Numbered from the stretch's first letter, positions 8,975 to 42,831 are shown. The stretch: DNA of 64,000 nucleotides from Halopelagius inordinatus (GCF_900113245.1 NZ_FOOQ01000002.1:842881-906880); one strand, 5' to 3'. Notes: generated from the sequence alone by a model not told the origin. Numbers and translations are program-made.

Positions 8975-9029
8975 CGCGAATCACCGACGGAGTCTCCGCC
9001 TTCGGTTGCGTGTGCGTGTGAACGTTCAT
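8964..9029 (-). CDS. Possible leader peptide (uORF) of nirA
   Basis: A 21-codon frame with an ATG 55 bases upstream of the nirA ATG. The predicted peptide starts MNVHTHTQPKAETPSV. Its TAA stop overlaps the start of nirA by 11 bases, so ribosomes ending the uORF would meet the nirA start. It lies downstream of the promoter-like motif at 9085-9099 and would therefore be inside the transcript. Regulation is inferred from the arrangement only. Confidence 0.35.
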   Translation of the reverse strand: MNVHTHTQPKAETPSVIRDGA

Positions 9030-9084
9030 TCGTCGGTGATGGCTGTGGCAGCCACGCACATAGTGTTAACCGTTGAAAAACAAA

Positions 9085-10016: not shown

Positions 10017-12149
10017 TCAGTCGTCCGCCTCCGCGGAGAGGGCGGTCCGTCTCGACTCTCGCGTCGGGTGGAGGAGGCGAACGGCGCACTGCTTGAAGTT
10101 CGGCTCCTTCGAGTGGGGGTCCACCGCGGGGACGGTGAGGCGGTTCGTCGCGGGGTGGTGGATACTGCACCAGAGCATCCCTTCCGGAACCGTTTCGTCG
10201 GGTTCGACCACCCCGGAGACGGTGCCGCGCCGGGAGTCGACGAGCGTGGTCGGGCGGTCGTCGTCCGCGTCCGAATCGGCGTCATCGCCGTTCGGAGCCT
10301 CGTCGAGTGCGTCCGCGTGAGCGTCGAGCGTCCGCGGCGCGGCGCGGATTTCGAGGGGGTCCGGGTCGGCCACCTCTCTGGACCGAACCCCCGTGTTGTA
10401 TCCGTCCTCCTCGCGGGCGGTGGTGAGAACCAGCGGGAAGTCGTCGTCCGCGGGTTCCGGAAGGTCCGGCGCGTCGAACGCCAGCGTCGAGACGCGCGCC
10501 TTCGAGGACGGCGTCTCGAACGCCCACCCGCCGTCGGTCCGGTAGCGGTATCCGCCCGATGAGGAGAGAGTCGGCGCGGGCCACCGAACCGCGCCCTCCG
10601 CGTCGAGTCGGTCGTAGGAGATACCGGCGCAGTCGGCCTTCGTCCCCGCCGTGAGCGCTCGGAACTCGTCGAACACCGCCTCGGGGTCGACGCTCGGGTC
10701 GGAGAGCAGACCCGGCGAGACGCGGCGGGCCACCGAGGCGACGATGTCGAGGTCGGTTCGAACGCCCGTCGGCAGGTCCGTCGCCGCCCGGACGCGCGAG
10801 ACGGTTCGCTCCATGTTCATCGTCGTCCCTCCCTGTTCGCCCCACGTCGCCGCCGGGAGAACCACGTCGGCCAGTTCCGTCGTCTCCGTCCGGAAGGCGT
10901 CCTGCGCGACGAGGAACGTCTCGTCGAGGGCCTCTCGCACCCGGTTCGCGTCGGGGAACCCCACCGCGGGGTTCGTCGCGACGGTCCAGACGACGGCGGG
11001 GTCCGAATCGAGCATGGAGACCGGTCCGGGGCCGGGGTCGTCGGGGAGGCGTTCGACCGGGACGTCCCACGCCTCGGCGACCGCCCGCCGTTCCTCGGGG
11101 TCGTCGAAGTCACGGTGTCCCGGCCACGACCCCTTCGAAGAGCAGACGCGCGTCCCCATCGAGTTCGCCTGTCCCGTCAGCGAGAACGGTCCCGACCCGG
11201 GGCCGAGGTTGCCGGAGGCCAGACAGAGGTCGACGAGTGCGCCCGCCGTCGCCGTCCCGCGGACGCTCTGGTTGATTCCCATCCCCCAGTAGAGGAGCGT
11301 CCGGTCTTCGAGGGCGTCCGCGAGGCGGTCGACGTCCCCGGTTTCGACGCCCGCGGCGTCGGCGGCGGCGGCGACGGTCGGAAGCGACGCGCGGAGTTCC
11401 GCGAACCCCTCGACGTTGTCGGCGACGAACGCCTCGTCGACGCGGTCGGTCTCGACCAGTCGGGCGAGAACCGCCTTCGCGAGGGCCAGGTCGCCGCCCG
11501 GGGAGGGTTGGACGTGGCCGTCGGCGAACCCGGCCGTCTTCGTCTCCACGGGGTCGACGACGAGGAGTTCGCCGTCGGTGGCGGCGTCGGCTATCCACCG
11601 GAACATCACGGGGTGGGCGACGGCGGGGTTCGCGCCCCAGACGACGTGGACGTCGGCGTCGGGAACGTCGTCGTACGTCGGCGGCGGCGCGTCGCTTCCG
11701 AACGCGTTGTAGTAGGCCGTGACGGCGCTCGCCATGCAGAGCGTCGTGTTAGCGTCGTACATCCGGGTCCCGATTCCACCGCGGGCGAGTTTCCCGAGGG
11801 CGTACGCCGCCTCGTTCGTCTGTTGCCCGCTTCCGAGGACCGCCACCTCGTCGGGGTCGGCGTCGCGGGCCTCTCGGAGGCGCACCGCGACGGTAGAGAG
11901 GGCGTTCTCCCACGTCGTCGGGACGAGTTCGCCGTCGCGCCGGACGTGCGGCCGGGTCAACCACTTGCCCTCGGGGTTCGCGGACTCGCGGATACCCCGT
12001 CCGCACGCGAGGCCCTGGTTGACCGGATGGGAGGGGTCGCCGCGGACCGATTCGACGCCGGCGCCGTCCGCTCTCTCCCTGTGGACGTGGCCGCACCCGA
12101 CCGCACACCGCATGCACGTGGTCGAAACCTGCCTCACCACTGCGACCAC
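10017..12149 (-). CDS. nasA: Assimilatory nitrate reductase catalytic subunit
   Basis: A 710-aa molybdopterin oxidoreductase. The N-terminus holds the 4Fe-4S motif (CMRCAVGC, with a fourth Cys in GLACGRGI near residue 48). The molybdopterin domains cover about residues 60-520 and a MopB C-terminal dinucleotide-binding domain begins near residue 590. Length and single-cluster architecture fit the NasA group that reduces nitrate to nitrite in the cytoplasm. No Tat signal is visible, in line with an assimilatory role. The start is a GTG; further GTG codons 3-4 codons later are possible. The region just before the stop is Asp-rich. Confidence 0.9.
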   Translation of the reverse strand: MVAVVRQVSTTCMRCAVGCGHVHRERADGAGVESVRGDPSHPVNQGLACGRGIRESANPEGKWLTRPHVRRDGELVPTTWENALSTVAVRLREARDADPDEVAVLGSGQQTNEAAYALGKLARGGIGTRMYDANTTLCMASAVTAYYNAFGSDAPPPTYDDVPDADVHVVWGANPAVAHPVMFRWIADAATDGELLVVDPVETKTAGFADGHVQPSPGGDLALAKAVLARLVETDRVDEAFVADNVEGFAELRASLPTVAAAADAAGVETGDVDRLADALEDRTLLYWGMGINQSVRGTATAGALVDLCLASGNLGPGSGPFSLTGQANSMGTRVCSSKGSWPGHRDFDDPEERRAVAEAWDVPVERLPDDPGPGPVSMLDSDPAVVWTVATNPAVGFPDANRVREALDETFLVAQDAFRTETTELADVVLPAATWGEQGGTTMNMERTVSRVRAATDLPTGVRTDLDIVASVARRVSPGLLSDPSVDPEAVFDEFRALTAGTKADCAGISYDRLDAEGAVRWPAPTLSSSGGYRYRTDGGWAFETPSSKARVSTLAFDAPDLPEPADDDFPLVLTTAREEDGYNTGVRSREVADPDPLEIRAAPRTLDAHADALDEAPNGDDADSDADDDRPTTLVDSRRGTVSGVVEPDETVPEGMLWCSIHHPATNRLTVPAVDPHSKEPNFKQCAVRLLHPTRESRRTALSAEADD

Positions 12150-38112: not shown

Positions 38113-38144
38113 AAGCCTAGGCCGGGATTTGAACCCGGGCTCTC
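38113..38144 (-). repeat. att site, displaced 3' fragment of tRNA-Thr
   Basis: A 32-bp copy of the discriminator, acceptor 3' strand and T-arm of tRNA-Thr(GGT). The match stops before the variable loop and anticodon arm, so this copy is not a tRNA gene. It marks the left end of the integrated element; the original chromosomal tRNA end lies here. Confidence 0.9.
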
Positions 38145-38189
38145 TCCGTCGGGCGATTTGGGGCACGCGGCCCCGCGCCCTCCGGAACC

Positions 38190-38229
38190 GGCTGTACCGC
38201 CTGTCGGTTTAGCTGGCTGTACCCGACAG
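38190..38229. promoter_or_regulatory. Repeats upstream of the integrase gene
   Basis: GGCTGTACC occurs at 38190-38198 and 38215-38223, 25 bases apart. An inverted repeat CTGTCGG (38201-38207) / CCGACAG (38223-38229) ends just before the integrase ATG. They may be integrase arm sites or an autoregulatory operator. Confidence 0.45.
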
Positions 38230-38232
38230 ACA

Positions 38233-39240
38233 ATGAGCCTGAAACCGACTCCGCCGCACGACGCGAAGAATCGCTACCTCAACGACAAGAAGCCCGGCGT
38301 TACCAAGAAGACAATCAAGAATTACCGTACCACCACTCGGCAGTTCTGCGACTGGCTGGACGAGCAGGGTGTCACGGACCTCACCGACCTCGACAGCGAG
38401 ATTATCCAGCGGTACAAGGAACACCGCCTGTCGAACGTGAAGGTCATCACGGCCCGGCAGGACATGATGACGCTCAAGCAGTTCATCGAGTTCTGCGAAC
38501 ACATCCAAGCCGTCCCTCGGGGCATGGCCGACATGGTACGGATTCCTTCCGTGAGCGAGGATGACGAGATTTGTGACGACCTTCTGACCCGGGAAGAGGC
38601 ATCGGACGTGCTGGATTTCCTCGGGAAGTTCGAGTACGCGAGCAACCGTCACGTCACTCTGCTAATCCTCTGGAAGACAGGTATGCGTATGAGTGGGCTT
38701 CGAGCACTCGACCTCGGAGACTTTGACGACGGACGACCTGCCCTCGAACTCCGTCACCGGCCTACATCCGGAACGCCGCTGAAGAACAAAGAGAAGAGCG
38801 AGCGAGACGTACTGATTACGTCCGAGACGGCAGAGGTCCTCCGTGACTACGTGGAGAGGAACAGAGAGGATGTGACAGACGAAGAGGGACGGAAACCGCT
38901 TCTCGCGTCCAAGAGCGGGCGTGTGGTTGAGACGACGATTCAACGCTACGTCTACACCGCGACTCGTCCCTGCTACTACAACGGCGGCGAGTGTCCGTTT
39001 GACCGCGACCCTGAGACTTGCGAGGCAATGTCGTGGAACGCTTCATGCAAGTGTCCGGGTAGCGTCAGCCCGCATGCTCTACGGCGTGGGTATGTGACTA
39101 CTGCTCGAAACGCAGGACAACCAAAAGACGTGACCGGAGAACGTGTGAACATGAGCGGGAAGGTGCTTGACAAACACTACGACAAGGGAACTTCTGCTGA
39201 GAAGGCAGAGAGGCGTCGGGACTACATTAGGGATATTTGA
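38233..39240 (+). CDS. int: Tyrosine recombinase/integrase (XerC/D type)
   Basis: A 335-aa site-specific recombinase. The N-terminal SAM-like core-binding domain covers about residues 20-105 (TIKNYRTTTRQFCDWLDEQG). The catalytic domain holds the first Arg in KTGMRMSGLRALDLGDF near residue 157, HALRRG near residue 281 and the nucleophile Tyr in LDKHYDKGT near residue 317. A Cys-rich insert (CYYNGGECP, CEAMSWNASCKCPG) before the HxxR box is usual in haloarchaeal integrases. It starts 89 bases inside the att repeat. The ATG at 38233 is preferred because the frame upstream of it runs through the tRNA fragment. Confidence 0.92.
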   Translation: MSLKPTPPHDAKNRYLNDKKPGVTKKTIKNYRTTTRQFCDWLDEQGVTDLTDLDSEIIQRYKEHRLSNVKVITARQDMMTLKQFIEFCEHIQAVPRGMADMVRIPSVSEDDEICDDLLTREEASDVLDFLGKFEYASNRHVTLLILWKTGMRMSGLRALDLGDFDDGRPALELRHRPTSGTPLKNKEKSERDVLITSETAEVLRDYVERNREDVTDEEGRKPLLASKSGRVVETTIQRYVYTATRPCYYNGGECPFDRDPETCEAMSWNASCKCPGSVSPHALRRGYVTTARNAGQPKDVTGERVNMSGKVLDKHYDKGTSAEKAERRRDYIRDI

Positions 39241-39316
39241 TTTAGCGATTTCCCATGTCCTTTTGGCACCCAAGGAAGGGGATTAATATGTATTAGAAGT
39301 ATTGTACGGAGTAGAG

Positions 39317-39541
39317 ATGTTTGGAGCATCGTTCGACACTCCTAAATTTGACCAACTGTTGCTCGTGGGAATAGGTCTTTTAGGAGCGATATTTTCTGGA
39401 TATCTTTTCGTACAAGCCCTTTCTACTTCAGATAGCGGGACAATATCTGGTTCCGGAATATATACAGTCATTTTTTATATGCTGTCTCTTGCACTATTTA
39501 TTCGATACAGAGCTTGGCGGCGCAAGCAGCGTGAGGAGTAA
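39317..39541 (+). CDS. Element-encoded small membrane protein
   Basis: A 74-aa protein with two membrane helices (LLLVGIGLLGAIFSGYLFV and IYTVIFYMLSLALFI) and a basic tail (RYRAWRRKQREE). It is 2 bases upstream of the next frame, so both are likely one unit. Codon use is A/T-rich compared with the host. No homologue recognised; it could be a membrane partner of the 183-aa protein. Confidence 0.65.
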   Translation: MFGASFDTPKFDQLLLVGIGLLGAIFSGYLFVQALSTSDSGTISGSGIYTVIFYMLSLALFIRYRAWRRKQREE

Positions 39542-39543
39542 TT

Positions 39544-40095
39544 ATGGGGGAGGAACGTTTTCAATTCGGACTCTGGGACCTTTTGAGTGTTGTATTTGGC
39601 GGTCTTGGTGCTGGTATGGGTGTCGGATTAGCTTTTTTACCGGATTCGCTTCCGGGGTTCCTTTCAATACAGCTCATCGGAGCCATTGCAGTACTCCTTA
39701 CTGTCCTATCACTTCTAATTCAGGCAGTTTCGATTGAAGAGGAAACAGAGGAAACAGAACAAGAAACGGTAGAAGTTCCAGTTTCAGTATATAATAGTCA
39801 TTTGGGAAGCATTCGAGAAGCAGGATATTACGAGGGGCGCTATAATCGATACCGAGAACAGTTAATTACCGAGAGAACAGTTGTTCAAGAAAACCATAGT
39901 CTTGACGAGTACCGGGAAATTAGTAAAAACAGGAATCTTGATGAATTCACCGATACTGGTGACGAGGAAGATGAAGAAGAGGAACAGCACAGTACGGAAG
40001 ATGAGGAAGAGAATACTAATCAATACCCATCACACGTCGAAAAGAAGGTAACGAAGCTTGAAAAAGAGGTAGAGAAGGAACTAGAGTATGAGTGA
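39544..40095 (+). CDS. Element-encoded membrane protein with acidic coiled tail
   Basis: A 183-aa protein. Two hydrophobic helices lie in residues 10-60 (GGLGAGMGVGLAFLP; LIGAIAVLLTVLSLLIQAV). A cytoplasmic part follows with Glu-rich stretches (EEETEETEQETVEV near residue 65; DEEDEEEEQ near residue 140) and a Lys/Glu heptad helix at the end (VEKKVTKLEKEVEKELEYE). It follows the 74-aa membrane protein directly. Function unknown; a membrane-located complex is plausible. Confidence 0.65.
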   Translation: MGEERFQFGLWDLLSVVFGGLGAGMGVGLAFLPDSLPGFLSIQLIGAIAVLLTVLSLLIQAVSIEEETEETEQETVEVPVSVYNSHLGSIREAGYYEGRYNRYREQLITERTVVQENHSLDEYREISKNRNLDEFTDTGDEEDEEEEQHSTEDEEENTNQYPSHVEKKVTKLEKEVEKELEYE

Positions 40096-40234
40096 CACAG
40101 AGCGTTATCTCTCGCAGTCATTTGCATGAGAAGGATTGCGGTAAGCAGGTAACTATCCAGAAGGCGACTGACAACAGCACGTTCGAGTACTGAGGCACAC
40201 CACTTGTCCTTCCATGCTCTCTGGTTCTTCGAGC

Positions 40235-40957
40235 TTAGATGAGTTCCTGTTTCTGTTCCTCAAGATACTCATAGGTCATATCAGATAGCTGGCTGACCAT
40301 CTGAAGAAACAATCTCATCACCAGTTGTACTATTTCGCCAATATCTGCATATGTCATAAAAAACGCAAAATCTTCGCTGTCCCACTCTTCAAATATATCT
40401 TCAACCGTTTCTGCAAATTCCTCAGTTGTTACTCCGTTATCGTTTAGTGCAGCTAATAGATGTCCGAAACCATCAGACATATCTCCGGCGTTATTCATCA
40501 ACTCCGTGAAATCCATTTCCGGATAGGATTCTCGCTGAGCCATTTCAAAAAGCTCGGTCAGAATTTCTATACCCTGCTTCTGGCTGTTGACCTCTGCTAC
40601 ACTACTTGCCTTTGAATATAGCTCAGAGAGAGTTCCAACATGATTCGCGGCTTCATCAGGGACGCCCTCGGGATAATTTCGAGCTTTCACGTACAACTGG
40701 TCAGAGAAATCGCTCAAGTCGCCCAATATCGCGTCGTATCCGATTTCAGACCTCAACCCGGCACGGTAGACTGTTTGGTTCCCTCGGCTGGCCAAGTTTT
40801 GGCAGTCGTCGAACCAGTCCTCAACCTCGGTTTCTGCTTTTCGTTGCTGTTCTCTATAACGTCGCCACTCGTGCCCGCCAACAGCTCCGACCAGTCCACT
40901 TACTATCGGAGTAACCTCCATTACCGGAAAACCTGACAATCCCGCTTGAAGTATCAT
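40235..40957 (-). CDS. Element-encoded 240-aa protein of unknown function
   Basis: A 240-aa protein, convergent with the membrane pair. A short hydrophobic N-terminus (VMEVTPIVSGLVGAVGGHEW) is followed by a long helical, acidic region (TEVEDWFDDCQNLASRG; LSDFSDQLYVKARNYPEGVP) and a C-terminal helix rich in Met/Leu (VQLVMRLFLQMVSQLSDM). The N-terminal segment could be one membrane anchor. I recognise no domain. Low GC relative to the host supports transfer with the element. Confidence 0.65.
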   Translation of the reverse strand: MILQAGLSGFPVMEVTPIVSGLVGAVGGHEWRRYREQQRKAETEVEDWFDDCQNLASRGNQTVYRAGLRSEIGYDAILGDLSDFSDQLYVKARNYPEGVPDEAANHVGTLSELYSKASSVAEVNSQKQGIEILTELFEMAQRESYPEMDFTELMNNAGDMSDGFGHLLAALNDNGVTTEEFAETVEDIFEEWDSEDFAFFMTYADIGEIVQLVMRLFLQMVSQLSDMTYEYLEEQKQELI

Positions 40958-41000
40958 GAATGACTGTTTCGTGAGAAGGTGTTGTTAATCTACCTTACAG

Positions 41001-41096
41001 TCAAGATATGGAGTATTTCTGAGAGAGTTTCTTCTCCGCACGTTCCAGCATCTTCTCTATGCGTCGTAGATTCATCTTTATCAATTTGAGCGACAT
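41001..41096 (-). CDS. Possible 31-aa basic helix protein
   Basis: A 31-codon frame starting MSLKLIKMNLRRIEKMLERA and ending at a TGA, 43 bases upstream of the 240-aa gene on the same strand. The peptide is a Lys/Arg/Leu helix. It lies just downstream of the duplicated module at 41120-41169, whose minus strand carries TTAAAAC. Weak: the size is small and no homologue is known to me. Confidence 0.3.
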   Translation of the reverse strand: MSLKLIKMNLRRIEKMLERAEKKLSQKYSIS

Positions 41097-41119
41097 GTAG
41101 ACAAAATCGGGGGAGTTGT

Positions 41120-41169
41120 CTGAGCGACTAACGTTTATCTGCCATTCTTCGATAGGATTGATGTTTTAA
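41120..41169. repeat. Duplicated module, copy 1
   Basis: Begins CTGAGCGACTAACGTT and ends GATTGATGTTTTAA, with about 20 variable bases between. A copy with the same ends and a 19-base middle occurs at 42503-42551 in the same orientation. On the minus strand the end reads TTAAAAC, TATA-like, and each copy lies upstream of a minus-strand gene. Could be a promoter-operator or plasmid maintenance site. Confidence 0.6.
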
Positions 41170-41175
41170 GCCGAA

Positions 41176-41197
41176 GGAGTGACCGGTCACCAACTCC
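41176..41197. repeat. Palindrome in the element's non-coding region
   Basis: A perfect 12-bp palindrome GTGACCGGTCAC (41179-41190), extended by outer arms GGAGT and ACTCC with a 2-base bulge. It lies 7 bases after copy 1 of the duplicated module. Confidence 0.6.
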
Positions 41198-41217
41198 CTT
41201 TGCCAAATGCGTGGGAG

Positions 41218-41248
41218 GTAGTACCGACTGTAGTACTGCCTGTACTAC
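41218..41248. repeat. Iteron-like GTAGTAC array at 12-bp period
   Basis: GTAGTAC occurs at 41218-41224 and 41230-41236, and its inverse GTACTAC at 41242-41248, each separated by exactly 5 bases. The last two form a 7-bp stem with loop TGCCT. Spacing near one helical turn suggests binding of several protein copies on one DNA face. Confidence 0.65.
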
Positions 41249-41680
41249 GGGTTGAAATATATCCGGTTATAGAATCGGAGTACTATTTCGGTGAACATCA
41301 AGAAGGGCCGCAGCAGCCTATGATAAATGTGATAGAGCGGTGAATCTGTCTGACCTATCTCGGCGTACAACTGTAGGGGGACGGACCAACGCCAGAGACG
41401 ACGGCTCGCAGTAACCGGACACCACACGTTGTCAACCTCTGGGAGAGCGGTATTCACAGTCGAACTGGTGAAGAGTTAAGAATACATCTCACCGGCCACC
41501 ACCTCGCCTGCGGCTCGGGACGGTGGCCGCGGCCTTCTTGAGGAAAACCGCTCTCGCCAATCCATAGCCTGTTGTCAGCACCGGAACTCATAACAGTCCG
41601 AGTATCAGTACCTGTTTTCCGACCTGTTCTACTTACAGTAATGGTAAACGGTTTATATACCCCCTCTCCCACGAGGTCGT
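41249..41680. other. Gene-poor part of the element with a hairpin and a TATA-like box
   Basis: No convincing gene. It contains an 8-bp inverted repeat CGGCCACC (41493-41500) / GGTGGCCG (41522-41529) around a GC-rich 21-base loop, and a TTTATATA box at 41652-41659. The latter reads TATATAAA on the minus strand and could drive a minus-strand transcript through this region. Two minus-strand open frames here (70 and 78 codons) have poor starts and are not annotated. Confidence 0.45.
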
Positions 41681-42292
41681 CTACAACCAACCACTATCTG
41701 CACCGGCGTCAGTCGAACGCCAGTTGAACTGAAGTGCGTCGTCCGTCTGGTAACGGTCGAAATTCGTAGATTCCAACTTTCCGGCGCGAATCCGATGCTC
41801 CACCTTCCCATACACCTTGGCGAATTGTCTCTCAGAGATACCCGATTGTTCCCGTATCTCGGTAAAGAGAGAGTCGTTGGGCTTGGACGCAGGATGGCAC
41901 TTTCGTCCTTTCCCATCTGTATGGACCGTGTACGCACAGACGCAGAATGCAACAACCTCAGCAGGGAACCCCATGTGTTGGAGGTCGAGGCGCGTGAACG
42001 ACTCAATGGCTCTCCGTCTCTGAGATGGCATCATCTCCAGTTTGTCCGAGAGAGTTGCTGCGAGGTCCCTGTTCATTCGATATGTTAGGTATTCGTAGTT
42101 CATTCGGTGACCATTGACCAACCCCTGATTGTTTCGGTCCAGATACTCGTAGTAGTCTCTCTTGTTCAGGGGGTAGTGGTCAGTAAGCCAGTCACCATCT
42201 CCATCCCAGTCTGACCAGCCAATATACGTCGCGTTGTTCGTGTCCGGCTTCACTAATTCGGCATAGGCGTGGCTATCTGCTGTAGCTGTCAT
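41681..42292 (-). CDS. Conserved haloarchaeal plasmid/integrated-element protein
   Basis: A 203-aa protein. The segment ATYIGWSDWDGDGDWLTDHY near residue 21 and KRDYYEYLDRNNQGLVNGHR near residue 45 are, from memory, typical of a family found on haloarchaeal plasmids and integrated elements, sometimes mislabelled RNA polymerase subunit epsilon. The C-terminal half has RRRAIESFTRLDLQHMGFP and a helix-turn-helix-like segment (IREQSGISERQFAKVYGKVE near residue 147). DNA binding or a replication-linked role is inferred. About 210 bases upstream lies copy 2 of the duplicated module. Confidence 0.7.
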   Translation of the reverse strand: MTATADSHAYAELVKPDTNNATYIGWSDWDGDGDWLTDHYPLNKRDYYEYLDRNNQGLVNGHRMNYEYLTYRMNRDLAATLSDKLEMMPSQRRRAIESFTRLDLQHMGFPAEVVAFCVCAYTVHTDGKGRKCHPASKPNDSLFTEIREQSGISERQFAKVYGKVEHRIRAGKLESTNFDRYQTDDALQFNWRSTDAGADSGWL

Positions 42293-42758
42293 AGTAATTC
42301 GTTGAGCCCGAAGTGCGTCAGAGAACTACCTTTCAGAACTATTCGCTAAACTGGTTGGTAGTCAACTGACGATACGAGAAAGCTCTACAATAGAATATGT
42401 GTGCTCAAGCAGTATAGTTCTTTCTTAGAGAGTGTCTGCGGGGGAGAACTGACGAAGAAAGAGAATTGGTCCAGAGGTTAGCTTAAAATTGAGAAAAATT
42501 TGCTGACCGACTAACGTTGTTCGCCTTCGCCTGTGGGGATTGATGTTTTAACCCCTTGGGTGGCGAGCCTTCTCGCTGAAACTCGCATTTAGAAAAACCA
42601 CGGTACGCAGGAGGGTAGTTGCGCACGCGGGTGTCCTTGATATAGAGTAAGAAGCAGCAAAATAATCCGCAAAACGGGTAGAATTGCTACGCTCTAATCG
42701 GCGGAAAAGTTATGGTAGAAGGGCGCAGTCTACGAATTACAGTCAGCGCCGCAGGCGC
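42293..42758. other. Non-coding right arm of the element
   Basis: About 465 AT-richer bases without a supportable gene. It holds copy 2 of the duplicated module (42503-42551) and a small GCGCC/GGCGC hairpin at 42746-42758 against the att site. Upstream sequences for the 203-aa gene lie at its left end. Confidence 0.5.
42503..42551. repeat. Duplicated module, copy 2
   Basis: Begins CTGACCGACTAACGTT and ends GATTGATGTTTTAA, one base shorter in the middle than copy 1 at 41120-41169. Same orientation, 1.38 kb apart. It is followed by ACCCC, which with GGGGAT before it could form a short stem around the TATA-like end. Confidence 0.6.
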
Positions 42759-42790
42759 AAGCCTAGGCCGGGATTTGAACCCGGGCTCTC
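42759..42790 (-). repeat. att site, right copy within the intact tRNA-Thr gene
   Basis: The 32-bp repeat that supplies the T-arm and acceptor 3' strand of the functional tRNA-Thr gene. It is identical to 38113-38144; the flanking base differs on each side. Confidence 0.9.
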
Positions 42791-42831
42791 GTCCTTACCA
42801 AGGACGCGCTTTACCGCTAAGCTACCCAGGC
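42760..42831 (-). tRNA. tRNA-Thr (anticodon GGT)
   Basis: A 72-nt cloverleaf on the minus strand. Acceptor GCCTGGG pairs with CCTAGGC (one G-T pair). The D-arm is GCTTAGCGGTAAAGC. The anticodon stem is CGTCC/GGACG around loop TTGGTAA with anticodon GGT. The T-arm CCGGG TTCAAAT CCCGG is complete. CCA is not encoded. The 3' end is supplied by the integrated element. Upstream CCTAAAGAG (minus strand) is a possible TATA box. Confidence 0.95.

Follow-up and report, generated by a model that had tools for sequence, protein, structure and literature searches.

The SNJ2-type integrases are a known haloarchaeal family, typified by the integrase of the pleolipovirus SNJ2 and its relatives (reviewed in PMC8371274), of which more than 500 have been reported (PMC5867852). 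A protein is assigned to this family if 60% of it aligns with SNJ2 Int at an identity of 30% or more (PMC8371274). In SNJ2 an open reading frame (ORF) containing attP lies downstream of the integrase gene (int), and a replication operon forms when the element becomes circular (PMC13107129). A second related system is that of the Halorubrum ezzemoulense integrase islands, which the available part of that account (PMC11078007) describes as low in GC (40-55%), carrying hypothetical and restriction-modification genes, in many cases near tRNA genes, with opposing islands sharing only the integrase. Here we describe a 4.6-kb element at positions 38113 to 42790 of a 64,000-nucleotide stretch of Halopelagius inordinatus (NZ_FOOQ01000002.1:842881-906880; the whole stretch is called the window below). 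We consider it likely that this element is a small, probably non-autonomous, integrative mobile cargo island. It clearly belongs to a widespread kind of element, in which a reassorted end module and a very probable reduced transcription factor B (mini-TFB) are new. The features that define its ends are the following.

38113-38144, minus strand: left copy of the attachment (att) repeat, a displaced 3' fragment of tRNA-Thr(GGT), a perfect 32-bp match to 42759-42790
38145-38232, plus strand: left arm, the int leader with a TTTA box (38208-38211) and a dyad, from the clade alignment
38233-39240, plus strand: SNJ2-type tyrosine integrase of 335 amino acids, from Pfam PF00589 and PF02899, identity to the SNJ2 and HRPV9 integrases, and motifs
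42594-42758, plus strand: right arm, conserved in the tRNA-Thr clade, from the clade alignment
42628-42638 and 42675-42685: two direct arm-type-like sites within the right arm, from the clade alignment
42759-42790, minus strand: right copy of the 32-bp repeat, completing the tRNA-Thr
42760-42831, minus strand: tRNA-Thr(GGT), the integration target, from the tRNA gene call and an Rfam tRNA match of 70 bits

The two copies of the repeat are exact, as the first-pass annotation had reported, and spaced by 4646 nucleotides; a 32-nt exact match far exceeds what chance would produce in a 64-kb window. The right copy forms the 3' end of the tRNA gene while the left one is an isolated fragment, and they are the only perfect copies of this 3' end in the 14 contigs of the genome. 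The GC content of the 4,646-bp unit is 50%, ranging from 46 to 52% along it, versus 65-70% in the surrounding chromosome. The integrase lies just inside the left repeat, as had been noted, and is directed into the element, its 5' end lying at att; its ATG at 38233 is 88 nt from the repeat and not the 89 given earlier. The uninterrupted tRNA-Thr locus, for which a search of relatives had been recommended, was found in a genome of the same genus (G001), where a single copy of the tRNA 3' end completes the tRNA-Thr, the element is absent and the outer flanks of the locus are conserved on both sides. Immediately left of the element, about 1.1-1.3 kb of host DNA cannot be aligned to G001, and the comparison with the unoccupied site is thus one of loci and not of single bases. 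Direct repeats of which one completes a tRNA, an integrase adjoining one end, the element-free locus and the sister elements in the same tRNA described below agree with the proposed insertion, and integration into tRNA-Thr(GGT) by the tyrosine integrase is strongly supported at the level of sequence. The tRNA is the sole Rfam match of the element; as to a further non-coding RNA, a below-threshold mascRNA match falls on the tRNA itself and was discarded. Locus L056 of genome G025 has an intact tRNA-Thr copy and, about 2.2 kb away, a truncated 5' part (8982-9038 and 11274-11345); the same hotspot has there received a further insertion, of different geometry.

The integrase is 39.8% identical to SNJ2 Int over 99% of its length and 42.8% identical to HRPV9 Int, which places it within the SNJ2-type group. 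Both the Phage_int_SAM and the Phage_integrase domains are present (Pfam), together with the motifs TGMR, NKEKSER, SPHALRR and KHYDK, and we take TGMR, SPHALRR and KHYDK to contain the standard catalytic residues R, HxxR and Y. The element resembles the IntSNJ2-type elements in having a recombinase with SAM-like and Phage_integrase domains, restricted to haloarchaea and inserting into a tRNA gene. Unlike SNJ2, with its 17 kb, the 4.6-kb element has no pleolipovirus structural gene (spike or VP) and no DUF7845 Rep gene among its Pfam and PHROG matches, and it carries a mini-TFB; its int faces inward, with the right arm predicted to fall upstream, in contrast to the attP ORF downstream of int in SNJ2 (PMC13107129).

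Integrases of the SNJ2 type occur in 257 of the 292 Halobacteria genomes searched (E<=1e-60). The search for elements with the same integrase in related genomes, which the first-pass annotation had also advised, yielded 14 elements in tRNA-Thr(GGT), each from a different genome and with integrases at least 81% identical; the sequence of this tRNA is itself conserved across haloarchaea. In all of them the integrase is intact or almost so (in L128/L153 a single in-frame stop interrupts it close to the end); 11 were found first and three were added later through integrase DNA alone, in one of which (L223) the left att is no longer visible. The elements of this clade measure 2.4-8.5 kb, apart from one of 15 kb. 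Similar elements in tRNA-Thr(CGT), Ala, Lys and Val are marked by more distant integrases, and two of them reside in the same genome as the window (G000, contig C1): a 4.9-kb element with a mini-TFB in tRNA-Thr(CGT) at about 811-816 kb (L075), and a 10.8-kb element in tRNA-Ala(CGC) at about 314-325 kb (L166). On plasmids, the DNA search matched only tRNA fragments and the protein search only integrases below 60% identity.

Whole-element DNA comparison of the 11 elements reveals that the window and its tRNA-Thr sisters have in common only att with int at the left end and, beside the tRNA at the right end, about 100-190 bp; the three later elements were compared for int, att and arm sites. The TTTA box and the dyad upstream of int are conserved in part of the clade, the dyad being perfect (GGCTGT...ACAGCC) in three members, present with changed arms (GGTGT...ACACC) in two, and imperfect in the window, where it is deduced from the sister elements. 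In the right arm, sites of the CGGGTGTCCTT type stand at near-fixed positions relative to the core, around -130 and -83; with a loose pattern both are found in 10 of the 14 elements, one in L090, L156 and L225, and none in L154. This conservation is suggestive and not proof of function, since the sequences of the clade share ancestry. The right arm, att and int look like one attP-int module whose parts would become neighbours on circularisation, and the alignments indicate that everything between the end modules is exchanged among sister elements. Like the Halorubrum ezzemoulense islands, the element is a low-GC integrase island at a tRNA gene, with contents that differ from those of its relatives; neither an att-arm module nor a TFB-like protein is described for those islands in the available part of the account (PMC11078007).

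We propose that Int would excise the island through recombination between the two att copies, leaving the tRNA intact either way. By excision the right arm, with its pair of direct arm-type-like Int sites, would be brought next to att and int, and in the resulting circle it would lie directly upstream of both. The attP-int circle could then reintegrate at tRNA-Thr(GGT) in another cell, with transfer being passive, by virus packaging, vesicles or cell fusion, and with the host replicating the DNA of the element between transfers. In this mechanism the middle may act as a cargo bay for contents of benefit to the host, possibly antiviral, while ORF203, the gene closest to the right arm, may adjust transcription. 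This gene and the repeat around it are located as follows.

41120-41172, plus strand: approximately 52-bp imperfect direct repeat, copy 1, from sequence comparison
41681-42292, minus strand: ORF203, a very probable mini-TFB with a TFB linker-like N-terminus and a single cyclin box, from phrog_12649, hhalign and structure matches
42503-42554, plus strand: approximately 52-bp imperfect direct repeat, copy 2, upstream of ORF203, from sequence comparison

ORF203 matches phrog_12649 (E 1e-22, PHROG search), and its family occurs in 31 of the 292 Halobacteria genomes and in 9 of the 14 tRNA-Thr elements, including all three that were selected later by integrase only. In 18 elements the divergence of int and that of ORF203 are uncorrelated (Spearman -0.05, Mantel p 0.58), and ORF203 has thus been reassorted between elements. 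Aligned by hhalign against 15 haloarchaeal TFBs, ORF203 gives a probability of 85 and a score of 44.3 over 148 columns, spanning the TFB linker and the first cyclin repeat in order, whereas the controls reach at most 18.3 for column shuffles (150 trials), 15.1 for the reversed profile and at most 22.3 for seven other families. The score is 40.7 to TFB repeat 1 versus 23.2 to repeat 2. AlphaFold2 models of the window protein (pLDDT, the predicted local distance difference test, 65.5 overall and 78-92 over residues 71-170) and of a homolog from the viral clade (pLDDT 78.4) adopt a cyclin-box fold; in the PDB they match TFIIB-type cyclin repeats best, and the part placed on repeat 1 is residues 52-159 or 62-171. 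TFIIB chains hold most of the top ranks in the structure matches of the two models, with maximum Z scores of 9.9 and 10.7. Chance similarity between helical folds can give Z values this high, but sequence and structure searches choose the same TFB repeat.

Several results speak against this assignment and temper it. The hhalign score falls to 31.9 when 46 family members are used (shuffles at most 23.1), and the probabilities are low when single ORF203 subfamilies are used. The Foldseek matches to TFIIB have marginal E-values (the better model gives 0.04-0.5), and none of 23 family members has a Pfam TFIIB (PF00382) match. A profile hidden Markov model of ORF203 likewise gave no significant match among PDB sequences. 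Unlike archaeal TFB/TFIIB, to whose linker and first cyclin repeat it aligns, the protein appears to be devoid of a zinc ribbon and of the second repeat, with the hhalign alignment covering only the linker and repeat 1. Taken together, profile and model comparisons make it very probable that ORF203 is a divergent form of TFB that has a single cyclin repeat and lacks the zinc ribbon. Most likely it binds TBP and promoter DNA or RNA polymerase, activating or repressing promoters of the element and possibly of viruses. The two copies of the repeat (CTGASCGACTAACGTT...GGATTGATGTTTTAA) flank ORF203, 1382 bp apart, and a possible role is that of an autoregulatory site; L178, which has the closest ORF203 homolog (58% identical), carries a related copy upstream of that homolog. 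As a signal of the whole family the repeat was rejected, given that both parts are found only in the window and a single related copy in L178.

ORF203 also provides a link to tailed haloviruses, some of which carry its homologs or the same integrase clade. Homologs are found by tblastn in 49 phage records, mainly tailed haloviruses and including those of the HF1/HF2/HSTV-2 type, whose PHROG_12649 proteins are annotated as hypothetical. In contrast to ORF203 in its 4.6-kb island, these genes are embedded in virus genomes of 68-78 kb, upstream of an ERCC4-type nuclease gene, which they directly precede in HF2 and HSTV-2. A 58.9-kb tailed provirus (IMGVR_UViG_2639762639_000001; L204/L209/L210), whose contig is trimmed at genes with no att site readable, carries an integrase of the same clade (76% identity), baseplate genes and a mini-TFB beside a gene that we read as an ERCC4-type nuclease. 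Small islands and tailed proviruses thus share the integrase clade and the mini-TFB, which is compatible alike with a satellite relation, with reduction from a provirus or with a common gene pool.

The first of these relations would make the element a satellite of a tailed halovirus, excising on infection, tapping or blunting helper transcription through the mini-TFB and being packaged in helper particles. The shared genes, the presence of the ORF203 family in such viruses and the lack of recognised replication or capsid genes in the element are in keeping with it; against it, Pfam and PHROG searches recognise no packaging, capsid-interference or remodelling, or terminase-like gene of the kind of phage-inducible chromosomal islands (PICI) or P4, no helper has been identified, int and ORF203 are inherited independently, and the scan of viral contigs found this integrase clade in no contig other than the 58.9-kb provirus and, by single-protein scan, no ORF203 relative in a small element. 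We regard a satellite as unlikely. By the second relation the element would be a decayed provirus, trimmed to int and leftovers and now immobile. Decayed relatives do exist, namely a tRNA-Thr-type element with a frame-broken integrase (L226, in G096) and an integrase fragment in G016, but the perfect att repeats, intact integrase motifs and conserved arms of the element, and the many sisters of similar size with different cargo across families, render this very improbable. A broader idea, tentative and still rather unlikely, is that the mini-TFB is a portable transcription hijacker common to tailed haloviruses and islands. The islands would then be satellites or virus-sensing defence islands, using it to recognise, divert or block viral transcription and spreading with a helper that shares the tRNA-Thr integrase clade.

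No replication, capsid or transfer gene is recognised in the element by Pfam or PHROGs, and the earlier remark that it lacks a recognised replication initiator holds for these libraries, with no Rep-type match. A minimal integrative plasmid, autonomous after excision through an initiator that escapes recognition (ORF203 or a non-coding origin), would follow the example of SNJ2, which, once excised, replicates in the manner of a circular plasmid (PMC13107129), and several hundred bases of non-coding DNA with the approximately 52-bp repeat flank ORF203; yet ORF203 resembles a TFB and not an initiator, it is missing from some sisters, and Rfam matches are limited to the tRNA. We therefore rate such a plasmid as improbable. 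The first-pass description as a satellite or minimal integrative plasmid agrees with the element to the extent that no gene for autonomous replication, packaging or capsids is found; it is less in line with the sisters, most of which resemble exchangeable cargo or defence islands.

The cargo of the window between int and ORF203 consists of three genes.

39317-39541, plus strand: small hydrophobic protein of 74 amino acids (79 from TTG 39302), an ORF with no Pfam match above cut-off
39544-40095, plus strand: ORF183, a 183-amino-acid protein with a hydrophobic N-terminus and an acidic C-terminus
40235-40957, minus strand: ORF240, a 240-amino-acid protein with homologs in other genomes

The 74-residue product is probably a membrane protein, judging by hydrophobic stretches read by eye. 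A relation of the two genes after int to the accessory proteins Orf2 and Orf3 of SNJ2 was discarded, as both encode hydrophobic proteins without such a Pfam match. The only homolog found for ORF183 (25% identity, in G279) belongs to a tRNA-Thr(GGT) element too. ORF240 has homologs in the accessory regions of five other genomes, three of them near genes matching PADLOC (HmaB/HmaC-like, a cyclase of the cyclic oligonucleotide-based antiphage signalling system (CBASS) type, and DrmC-like); no homologs of ORF240 or ORF183 were found in phages. With genes of the sister loci called by the longest-ORF rule, elements in tRNA-Thr(GGT) encode a SIR2-type PDC-S65 protein (L064), type I restriction-modification (L154), a type II methyltransferase and endonuclease (L155), an N6-methyltransferase (L151) and HNH/IIG-like proteins (L152). 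Among elements in other tRNAs, type IIG-like enzymes are found in L160 and, as cluster members by similarity, in L166 (a 1304-amino-acid protein), L167, L170 and L093, and L168 carries a cluster matching type I genes. Given the restriction-modification or SIR2-type genes of several sisters, the most likely role of ORF240 and the two hydrophobic proteins is that of a module of benefit to the host, possibly antiviral. As a separate observation, clusters c4 (about 600 amino acids, DinG-like helicase) and c5 (SWIM domain) recur in L155, L157, L159, L165 and L093, which are mostly without a mini-TFB, and the helicase-like gene may be an alternative module.

Insertion into tRNA-Thr with the tRNA restored, the integrase motifs, the shared ends and the exchanged middle can all be read in the sequences compared. 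Other points count against a mobile cargo island: excision, the circular form and transfer are steps that we infer, the inner arm site of the window (42675-42685) is degenerate, the cargo of the window includes no defence gene recognised by Pfam or by PADLOC, where no match is significant, and ORF203 is absent from 5 of the 14 tRNA-Thr elements and thus not essential.

The literature searched, which included few subscription papers, mentions no protein resembling TFB either from such elements or from HF2-type viruses. The element offers a compact and testable case of how cargo and anti-virus genes may move among haloarchaea, with a fixed attP-int module, swappable contents and the same tRNA reused across genera and families. 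It further suggests a candidate function, that of a stripped-down TFB, for the hypothetical virus family PHROG_12649. If this is true, archaeal mobile elements and lytic tailed viruses would share a mimic of a general transcription factor, and the mini-TFB would bear on how archaeal viruses and islands control the host RNA polymerase.

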